In this document: positions 15,522-45,791 of the stretch, piece by piece | Position numbering within the stretch: the stretch's first letter is position 1 | How the letters are laid out: each line of letters starts with the position of its first letter | Origin: Massilia alkalitolerans DSM 17462 | GTDB lineage: Bacteria; Pseudomonadota; Gammaproteobacteria; Burkholderiales; Burkholderiaceae_D | DNA length: 64,000 nucleotides | Assembly (NCBI RefSeq): GCF_000427785.1 | Contig: NZ_ATYR01000003.1 | Coordinates: 287,589 to 351,588 of the forward strand | Reading direction: 5' to 3' | Made by a program: the position numbers and the translations under genes | Notes under the pieces: model-generated | What the model was told of the DNA's origin: nothing | Database searches by the model: none | What the model saw: only the letters and a program-made list of their open reading frames with translations

Positions 15522-15630
15522 GTAGGGTGGACGGCTATGCCGTCCGCGCGGTGATAGTTAGCTAACGAAATAACGCACAGGCAGATCTTGCCTGGTTTGA
15601 ACGCGCGGTCGGCAGAGCCGACCACCCTAC
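15522..15630. repeat. Family 1 palindromic repeat, copy 1
   Basis: Two inverted half-units: GTAGGGTGGACGGCTATG... on the left and its inverted relative ending CCGACCACCCTAC on the right. Each half-unit holds its own hairpin (GGACGGC/GCCGTCC and GGTCGGC/GCCGACC), so stem bases differ but pairing is kept. Total 109 bases, between fliK and fliL. It resembles REPIN-type elements. Confidence 0.85.
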
Positions 15631-17342: not shown

Positions 17343-17777
17343 ATGTCTGATACCCAGGATGACCAGAGCGCACTCGACGACGATTGGGGCGCGGCGATTG
17401 CCGAGCAGGCCGCAGCCGAAGCGGCGGCGCTCGAACGCCAGCAACAGCAGCAGGCCACCGCTACCGCGGCCGTGTTCAAGGATTTCTCGAACAAGGGCAC
17501 GCGCAACGACACGCCGAACGACATCGACTTCATCCTCGACATCCCGGTCCAGCTGACCGTAGAACTCGGCCGCACCAAGATCGCGATCAAGAACCTGCTG
17601 CAACTGGCGCAAGGCTCCGTGGTCGAGCTCGACGGCCTGGCCGGCGAGCCGATGGACGTGCTGGTCAATGGTTGCCTGATCGCACAGGGCGAGGTCGTGG
17701 TCGTGAACGACAAGTTCGGTATCCGTCTGACTGATATCATTACGCCATCGGAACGGATCAGAAAACTGAATAAATGA
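17343..17777 (+). CDS. fliN: FliN, flagellar motor switch protein
   Basis: A 144-residue protein whose SpoA domain occupies the last 80 residues: ILDIPVQLTVELGRTKIAI, then GSVVELDGLAGEPMDVLVN and GEVVVVNDKFGIRLTDII. FliN forms the bottom of the C-ring and docks FliH. The N-terminal 50 residues are Ala/Gln-rich and variable. AGGAGA precedes the ATG at a good distance. The stop overlaps the possible fliO start (ATGA), which suggests coupling. Confidence 0.96.
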   Translation: MSDTQDDQSALDDDWGAAIAEQAAAEAAALERQQQQQATATAAVFKDFSNKGTRNDTPNDIDFILDIPVQLTVELGRTKIAIKNLLQLAQGSVVELDGLAGEPMDVLVNGCLIAQGEVVVVNDKFGIRLTDIITPSERIRKLNK

Positions 17778-18664
17778 CCTCTAGCAACGTCGCTCATCGT
17801 CGAAGCCTCGGTTTTATCGTAGGGTGGGCGGGTCTCCCGCCCACGCGGTCAAACCAGGCCAGATCTGCCCGTTCGCTTTTTCATCCGATAACTATCACCG
17901 CGTGGGCGGCGAAGCCGCCCACGCTACGGATCGCGGCAGCATTGATGTTTGCGCCCTTGGCAGCTTGTGCGGCACCGGTTGGCGCCGATCAGGCACCAGC
18001 TACCCAGCAACAACAAGCGGCGCCCTGGACCGAACCCGATGCTCCCGCAGCCACCGCACCGGTTCCGGTGCCGGCCACTGCATCGCAAGACACCCAGCCC
18101 CTGCCACGCGGCGCCACCACCACCGGCCGCCCGGCCACGCCGGCCCGTCCCGCCCCGTCCGGTCCAGTGTCGACGCCGGTGCAGTCGCCCGGCCCGGCGC
18201 CGGCAGACAGTGTCCCGGCCGCGGCGGCCGAACAGCCCGCTGCCCCGGCAGCCACCACGCCCGCCCCTGCCCAGCGCCCGCCTCAGGTCGTGATGCCAAC
18301 GCCAAGCGCACCGGCCACCGGCAGCCTGCTGCAGACCATCCTGGCCCTGATGCTGGTGCTCGGCCTGCTGCTCGGCCTGGCCTGGTTCATGAAACGCTTC
18401 GGTCCGCGCGTCATGGGCGCCAGCGCCAACGTGAAGCTGGTCGGCGCGCTCAACATCGGCGGGCGCGAGCGCATCATGGTGGTCGAGGTGGGCAACCAGT
18501 GGATCGTCGTCGGCGCGTCGCCGGGACGGGTCAATGCCCTGGCCACCATGCCGCGCCAGGAAGGCGCGCAGGCGGACGGCGCCACGCTGGCTCCGCATGG
18601 GGCGAGCGCCGGCAGCTTCGGCGACTGGCTCAAGAACACGATAGACAAACGTAATGCGAAATAA
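17774..18664 (+). CDS. fliO: FliO, flagellar export apparatus assembly protein; 5' end carries a repeat
   Basis: The C-terminal half is clearly FliO: a membrane segment ([20 protein letters not shown]) followed by [19 protein letters not shown] and [19 protein letters not shown]. FliO helps build the FliPQR gate. The start is uncertain. The ATG at 17774 overlaps the fliN stop as ATGA, but the first 57 codons then run straight through a 109-base family 1 repeat (17819-17927). The next in-frame ATG, at 17945, would give a 239-residue protein with a short hydrophobic N-terminus; its Shine-Dalgarno is weak. Residues between the two hydrophobic parts are Pro/Ala-rich. The stop overlaps fliP by 11 bases. 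Confidence 0.82.
17819..17927. repeat. Family 1 palindromic repeat, copy 2, within the fliO frame
   Basis: The left half-unit begins GTAGGGTGGGCGGGTCTC and the right half-unit ends GCCGCCCACGCTAC, in inverted orientation, 109 bases in total as in copy 1. The hairpin stems here are GGGCGG/CCGCCC, a compensating change relative to other copies. It lies between the fliN stop and the first hydrophobic segment of FliO and keeps the fliO frame open. Confidence 0.85.
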
Positions 18665-28601: not shown

Positions 28602-28628
28602 ACTACGGCAGAATTCTCGAAAACTGTA
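28602..28628 (-). promoter_or_regulatory. Probable sigma-28 promoter of flgKL
   Basis: On the minus strand TACAGTTT, 11 bases, then GCCGTAGT, close to the FliA consensus TAAAGTTT-N11-GCCGATAA and in the same form as the flgM promoter. It lies 28 bases before the flgK start. The first three -35 bases are the edge of the family 1 repeat at 28626. Confidence 0.6.
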
Positions 28629-28748
28629 GGGTGGACGGTAAAACGGTCCAGTGGACTGTTTTACGCCGTCCGCGCGTTCAACTCACGGACGCGCTGTGGC
28701 AATGCTAGTTCCGGTCGAACGCGCGGTCGGCGAAGCCGACCACCCTAC
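28626..28748. repeat. Family 1 palindromic repeat, copy 3
   Basis: A 123-base copy between flgK and flgJ. It starts GTAGGGTGGACGGTAAAACG and ends GCCGACCACCCTAC. The left half-unit is enlarged by an extra AAAACGGTCCAGTGGACTGTTTT stretch that is itself palindromic. It fills almost the whole flgJ-flgK gap. Confidence 0.85.
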
Positions 28749-33123: not shown

Positions 33124-33193
33124 GTTGAACGCGCGGTCGGGAGACCCGACCACCCTACGTAGGGTGTTCGGCTTCGCCGAACGCGCGTTCAAC
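33124..33193. repeat. Family 1 palindromic repeat, copy 4 (inside-out arrangement)
   Basis: Two half-units meet at their GTAGGG ends: ...CCGACCACCCTAC directly joined to GTAGGGTGTTCGG..., with GTTGAACGCGCG outside on the left and CGCGCGTTCAAC on the right. Other copies have GTAGGG at the outer ends. One stem is GTTCGG/CCGAAC, a further compensating change. Located between flgE and flgF. Confidence 0.85.
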
Positions 33194-45681: not shown

Positions 45682-45791
45682 GTAGGGTGGACGGGTCTCC
45701 CGTCCGCGCGTTCAACTCCCGCGTGAAAGGATTCGGCGTCGACTGTTCCCGCACTGTCTGAACGCGCGGACGGCGAAGCCGTCCACCCTAC
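45682..45791. repeat. Family 1 palindromic repeat, copy 5
   Basis: A 110-base copy beginning GTAGGGTGGACGGGTCTCCC and ending GAAGCCGTCCACCCTAC, lying between the stops of two convergent genes. The two half-units are inverted as in copies 1-3. Confidence 0.85.

Follow-up and report, generated by a model that had tools for sequence, protein, structure and literature searches.

REPs are GTAG-footed imperfect palindromes of some 20-40 bp with a high copy number and an extragenic position, and an inverted pair of REPs forms a REPIN, whose mobilisation is attributed to a RAYT (TnpA-REP) transposase acting in trans. Most REPINs are intergenic and adjoin stop codons, where they are non-coding. The TAG of a REP is often the stop codon of the adjoining gene (PMC3733652), and excision of REPINs has been reported in P. 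fluorescens SBW25 (PMC3116915). Intragenic examples are also known. GTAG/CGTC REPs have been described within ORFs, in frame and in some cases N-terminal, and most of the N-terminal ones, in several other species, were judged unlikely to be coding, since initiation may take place beyond them (Di Nocera et al., 2013; PMC3733652). Neither 'flagell' nor 'Burkholderi' occurs in the main text of that paper. Translation has been observed in a handful of E. coli REP elements by PIRT-Seq (PMC12350097), and the Rickettsia palindromic elements (RPEs; Ogata et al., 2000, 2002) are described as accepted in frame into proteins (PMC10969869; PMC3733652).

Here we describe a REPIN-like element in the 5' end of the flagellar gene fliO, in a 64-kb stretch of the Massilia alkalitolerans genome (the window). 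It resembles the REPIN/RAYT systems in its GTAG foot, inverted REPs, high copy number, mostly intergenic positions near stop codons and in the presence of a REP-flanked Y1 gene, and differs from them in that the fliO copy lies wholly inside a core gene and in that this one junction has been struck in several lineages. Whereas the N-terminal cases of Di Nocera et al. (2013) are mostly thought to be non-coding, 58 junctions support coding here. REP sequence is translated in the PIRT-Seq cases as it would be in fliO, although the passages on REP translation in that report mention neither a signal peptide nor recurrent insertion (PMC12350097). RPEs occur in unrelated proteins, as far as the sources above describe them, whereas here a REPIN with RAYT features is found repeatedly in one probably cleaved segment, and the analogy is a functional one only. 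Searches of an open-access library found no report of a REP inside fliO, or of REPs, recurrent or otherwise, in a signal peptide. Intragenic REPs as such are already known; what is new is their recurrent insertion in one probable signal peptide with the frame kept. To the published doubt about the translation of N-terminal REPs the locus adds a case with strong comparative evidence.

The fliN/fliO locus and its repeat family

The features of the locus are as follows, with positions in the window.

15522-15630, no strand assigned: second two-REP copy, non-coding, directly past the fliK stop (15513)
17343-17777, + strand: fliN, whose TGA stop (17775-17777) overlaps the fliO start; Pfam FliMN_C, 1.5e-24
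17774-18664, + strand: fliO, 296 aa, start ATG 17774 within the ATGA overlap (17774-17777)
17774-17818, + strand: fliO codons 1-15, ahead of the repeat; MTSSNVAHR is common to the repeat-free nearest relative (L063)
17819-17927, + strand: REPIN-like element of 109 nt, two inverted GTAG-footed REPs, encoding fliO residues 16-52
17819-17848, + strand: left REP, foot GTAGGGT, 9-bp hairpin
17897-17927, - strand: right REP, inverted, foot GTAGCGT, 10-11-bp hairpin
17930-17971, + strand: hydrophobic core and A-C-A, fliO residues 53-66, part of a probable signal peptide by hydropathy
17945-17947, + strand: ATG, alternative fliO start of the initial annotation; CTG in the nearest relative

Along the locus the Pfam matches come in the order FliN_C, FliO (residues 204-290) and FliP, and the fliO product also has an NCBIfam FliO_TIGR match above the cut-off. 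The FliO domain is far downstream of the repeat, beyond an Ala/Pro-rich linker. The two arms of the element (17818-17849 and 17897-17928) are 32 nt each, 84% complementary and 47 nt apart, and each has its own perfect hairpin of 9-11 bp. In the fliO frame the repeat runs from the start of codon 16, which the foot opens, into codon 52, where its last base is, and 37 codons are wholly or partly repeat. The 109-base family repeat inside the fliO 5' end, and the roughly 36 repeat-encoded residues, that were claimed in the initial annotation are thus borne out, the element measuring 109 nt from foot to foot. The right REP contributes the codons CTA-CGG (Leu-Arg) immediately ahead of the hydrophobic core. 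GTAG-footed imperfect palindromes, an inverted pair and a high copy number are all found; the extragenic position is not, as the element sits within fliO. It begins 41 nt past the fliN stop, where the usual REP distance is 0-20 nt. Judged by its sequence, its family and its frame, the fliO insert is an ordinary REPIN-like element.

The family is large. A 117-nt query gave at least 71 matches at E <= 0.001 in the same genome (40 of 159 candidates scored), and the REP core pattern matched 49+60 times, which gives at least 109 REP cores, whereas the reversed pattern, used as a control, gave 0+0. A chance repeat as the origin of the fliO element was rejected on the absence of matches to this reversed pattern, and a sequencing or assembly oddity of one genome on the finding of inserts at the same place in other assemblies. 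There are four further GTAG-footed REP sites in the window (15522-15630, 28626-28748, 33131-33186 and 45682-45791). Elsewhere in the genome (L061), a Y1_Tnp gene (7.9e-9) is flanked by two inverted REPs (1305-1332 and 1957-1984 of that locus) whose make-up is the same as that of the fliO element, which is the RAYT layout. The 39 distinct REP sites of this genome that were examined were drawn from the matches to the 117-nt query and are a part of the total: 26 of them have, no more than 20 nt away, the stop codon of a called ORF that reads in their direction, and two fall within called ORFs, one being fliO and the other having no Pfam match.

Start codon, reading frame and leader of fliO

A search for the FliO C-domain in 62 congeneric genomes (the window's own included) matched 60 and left two without a FliO match. 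The fliN/fliO junction was readable in 58 of the 60, L014 and L076 being left out as fliN was not found in their stretches. ATGA is present at the fliN stop in all 58 junctions (own included), among them the overlap at 17774 named in the initial annotation, and in 37 of 39 added fliO loci outside this set. The FliO domain is in the ATGA frame at 56 of the 58 junctions. At the other two (L068 and L082), which are REP-free, it is shifted in the linker, the signal peptide being read in one frame and the FliO domain in another; this could be a frameshift, a sequencing error or a pseudogene.

Comparison with repeat-free relatives, which the initial annotation had named as a check, is provided most directly by the nearest relative (L063), a repeat-free sister on the tree with 90% identity in the FliO C-domain. 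The residues on both sides of its empty site are those of the window's fliO (MTSSNVAHR and RIAAAL): the window's gene reads MTSSNVAHR, then six residues and the repeat, and then the shared downstream residues. A second set of filled and empty sites is formed by L078 (filled) and L020 and L079 (empty).

Two readings had been offered in the initial annotation, that the repeat was accepted into the N-terminus of FliO, or that it rewired initiation and displaced the start to ATG 17945. The former is supported and the latter is not. If initiation had been rewired, fliO would start at ATG 17945 or at the TTG that precedes it (17942), and the repeat would be a 5' untranslated spacer. Both codons exist, and the weak Shine-Dalgarno that had been noted for ATG 17945 is indeed not convincing by eye. 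Moreover, the N-terminal REPs of several other species are mostly judged to be probably non-coding, as described above, and at least one in-frame GTG, TTG or ATG is present between ATGA and the core in nine of the 12 species with a two-REP insert, so that a start inside the repeat might be used in those nine. However, TTG-ATG at 17942-17947 is CTG-CTG in the nearest relative, and ATG 17945 is therefore not a conserved start. Starting at 17942/17945 would leave only 11 residues, without a positive n-region. There is no in-frame ATG, GTG or TTG between 17774 and the hydrophobic core in the window's fliO, and none between ATGA and the core in the two-REP species L005 and L069 either. ATGA is kept throughout the 58 junctions, and all 12 two-REP inserts are open in frame against 29% of the 138 frames of the 23 other two-REP copies of the window's genome, a frame-keeping length being a further condition. 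We therefore rejected the downstream start for the window's fliO and consider rewired initiation very unlikely. Acceptance of the repeat into the FliO N-terminus, read from ATG 17774, is supported by the conserved ATGA, the match of the flanking residues to the repeat-free relative and the frame of the inserts.

The ATGA frame is kept by all 15 inserts (12 two-REP and three partial). Openness of the 138 frames varies with phase: 26% are open in the fliO phase, 0% in the phase that reads TAG and 61% in the third. The left foot has the same phase in 12 of 13 inserts (12 two-REP inserts, of which two have a GTGG foot, plus L021; L025 is the exception). CTA is read at the right foot of each of the 12 two-REP inserts (with the outer foot of L025 counted) and is followed by Arg in 11, which places Leu-Arg at the n/h boundary. 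Part of this shared phase may come from common descent. Across five insert-bearing pairs pN/pS is 0.47-1.02 before the core and 0.23-0.46 in the FliO domain, with the two values close in two of the five pairs (0.57/0.46 and 0.47/0.39). Weaker amino-acid constraint before the core together with a kept frame is expected if the frame matters and the sequence hardly does.

Ahead of the hydrophobic core, which has a mean hydropathy of 2.17, the window's FliO has seven K/R and no D/E, and by eye A-C-A ends the hydrophobic stretch directly after the repeat. A Sec signal peptide has a positive n-region, a hydrophobic core and an A-x-A site. We take A-C-A to be a putative small-x-Ala cleavage site, and LAAC in the leader would also fit a lipobox. 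L063 has T-C-A in place of A-C-A, and the Cys is another residue in L006, L010, L012, L013, L067 and L078, with the small-x-Ala site kept by eye. Hydropathy, charge and this motif suggest that the FliO leader is probably a cleaved signal peptide, in which the repeat would form an extended n-region, as the hydrophobic stretch ending in A-C-A follows it directly. Mostly 4-21 residues precede the core in repeat-free congeners. One clade of seven and L068 have 27-37 residues there with no recognised REP, which shows that long n-regions occur without REPs too. Extended signal-peptide regions are known from autotransporters, where an ordinary hydrophobic core is likewise preceded by an n-region of exceptional length; in fliO, by contrast, the n-region comes from a mobile repeat. 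Both the signal-peptide-like n-region and the inserts at the same place in other species had been missed in the initial annotation.

Recurrence of the inserts and possible explanations

Two-REP inserts are present at 12 of the 58 fliN/fliO junctions (L001, L003, L004, L005, L007, L012, L013, L024, L025, L067, L069 and L078; the left arm is degenerate in L013) and partial inserts at three (L002, L009 and L021). They were sorted by eye, and all 15 are among the 56 loci on the tree. Identical FliO proteins are found in Massilia agri (L003), Telluria aromaticivorans (L004), M. phyllostachyos (L067), M. timonae (L078), M. solisilvae (L025) and M. horti (L021). The tree was built from fliN, fliP and the C-domain part of fliO; the leader was omitted, and L068 and L082 were excluded. 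It requires 10 changes for any insert or nine for two-REP inserts only, of which eight and seven, respectively, are forced by well-supported branches. Shuffled labels require 13.4 and 11.1 changes on average, and values as low were reached in 8 of 500 and 30 of 500 shuffles. On these sequences the junction has seen several gains or losses of an insert, gain and loss being indistinguishable on the tree.

The types of REP inserted also differ. The type in L024 has 91 copies in its genome G014 (the two fliO arms included), two in the sister G002 and none in G000 (the window's genome), G013, G007, G001, G020 or G010. A GTTGGC type has 94 copies in G020 and 62 in G010, both of which have fliO inserts of this type, and none in G000. 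For both insert types tested, the matching REP is thus numerous in the genome that carries the insert and has no copy in that of the window. The match is not exclusive: G018 and G065 are likewise rich in the L024 type, and G003 in the GTTGGC type, and all three lack a fliO insert. Of 80 named FliO loci, 74 had fliN and 39 of these came in addition to the 58 junctions (Janthinobacterium, Duganella, Pseudoduganella, Rugamonas, other Massilia and unplaced Oxalobacteraceae). L218 has one loose hairpin match and L234 one foot word at 206, and no GTAG-footed REP pair was found near the fliO start in any of the 39.

The fli cluster was surveyed in 57 stretches (56 congeners and the window) with a GTAG-foot hairpin detector, by which some inserts were missed. 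GTAG-footed REPs were detected at fliK/fliL, two genes with a genuine gap between them in the window, in 12 of 57 stretches, at fliN/fliO in 10 of 57, at fliH/fliI in 5 of 54 and at fliQ/fliR in 2 of 55, and outside these junctions past fliR in eight stretches and before fliF in five. None was detected at fliF/G (27 stretches), fliG/H (54), fliI/J (56), fliJ/K (35), fliL/M (54), fliM/N (57), fliO/P (44) or fliP/Q (57), and the matched parts of the fli genes were likewise free of them in the 57 stretches. At fliM/fliN, 50 nt of non-coding sequence separate the two genes in the window. In L005 the fliO repeat begins up to 74 nt past the fliN stop, a looser placement than is usual. The fliN/fliO junction folds more strongly than its shuffles (z -2.9, 0/200).

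We consider it very probable that a REPIN landed past the fliN stop, was translated as the n-region of FliO and was then discarded. The REPIN, presumably mobilised by a RAYT, would insert downstream of the fliN stop as it does past other stop codons. The fliO start lies within the fliN stop (ATGA), so that the address of the REPIN is at the same time that of the first codons of fliO; the overlap of the genes, and a tolerant leader, would make it coding. Inserts would persist only if the frame is left open. With translation from ATG 17774, through putative termination-reinitiation coupling, the insert would then lengthen the n-region of the FliO signal peptide, and signal peptidase would probably remove it with the rest of the signal, leaving mature FliO without repeat residues. 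Since those residues would be absent from the mature protein, inserts could be tolerated and turn over, probably without a phenotype. A cleaved signal peptide would be a good place for a repeat for the same reason, that the encoded residues would be discarded. This suggests a rule, by which a non-coding mobile repeat turns coding at its usual post-stop address when an overlap makes it the start of the next protein. The close filled and empty sites could be used to study effects on flagellar gene expression.

The recurrence could instead reflect a single ancient insertion early in the genus, which was lost in most lineages and whose REPs were overwritten by gene conversion with each genome's own type. 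This would account for the position of the right foot just before the core, in one phase, in all 12 two-REP inserts, and for the CTACG- or TACG-like stretch found there in the repeat-free L094, L020 and L079. The spacers of the fliO copies in L001, L004 and L005 are also alike (72-79%, compared with at best 72-74% between L001 and other copies of its own genome), and given these identities one shared ancestral insertion within the window's subclade is possible. For the genus as a whole a single insertion is doubtful, if far from negligible. The sisters L024 and L025 (branches 0.017 and 0.018) carry different REPINs with different left flanks, the L025 insert keeping a fragment that resembles the L024 type; none of the 11 genomes in the window's subclade has the GTTGGC or the L024 type; and the 39 added fliO loci are without a GTAG-footed REP pair. 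A further explanation is that the hairpins are kept for expression, either to stabilise the fliN message or to lower fliO, the encoded residues being a tolerated by-product. REPs between the genes of an operon can set expression in this way, and FliN is needed in many copies and FliO in few. The detection of REPs at fliN/fliO almost as frequently as at fliK/fliL, with none at fliM/fliN, and the strong folding of the junction, are consistent with such a role, which we nevertheless regard as unlikely. Insert presence follows the genome-wide number of REPs (p = 1.3e-4 for 12 two-REP against 41 without an insert; p = 1.1e-3 with partial inserts, 15 against 41; kinship ignored in both), as expected from a mere supply of repeats, and 41 of the 56 congeners on the tree have no insert. 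Quite unlikely, in our view, is a combination in which the junction would be a preferred site for the domestication of REPINs as n-regions, with hairpins that tune FliN:FliO output, the insert serving as regulatory RNA and cleavable targeting peptide.

Other REP arrangements

Several other REPs were observed alongside the fliO element. A single REP in the window's genome, one of the 39 sites examined, reaches across the start that was called for a QueF gene (L104:1495-2385); the true start is probably downstream of the REP, and the gene may be a second N-terminal REP case. At 33131-33186 in the window, two back-to-back REPs adjoin directly at their feet, whereas the other two-REP units found in the window have a spacer. 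At fliH/fliI of L117, L119 and L132 the TAG of the REP's GTAG foot is the stop codon of fliH, and the last FliH residues differ from those of repeat-free relatives.

In long-tip REPs a palindrome of about 27 nt (GT-N6-GYCCASTGGRC-N6-AC) takes the place of the short hairpin loop. They are found at 28626-28748 in the window, in fliO of L004, and in L041, L098, L106, L109, L113 and L116. The outer arms differ among copies, with some recurring, yet are mostly complementary. Eight long-tip REPs occur in the stretches examined, compared with 0-1 for control centres, and a strict pattern matches 14 of 62 congeneric genomes, compared with 0 for the reversed pattern. One of them is at fliH/fliI of the nearest relative, where fliH and fliI, which abut in the window, are split by about 1.5 kb. 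Beside the long-tip REP, this stretch contains an ORF of 359 aa (L113:2579-3658) that may encode an IS110-type transposase.
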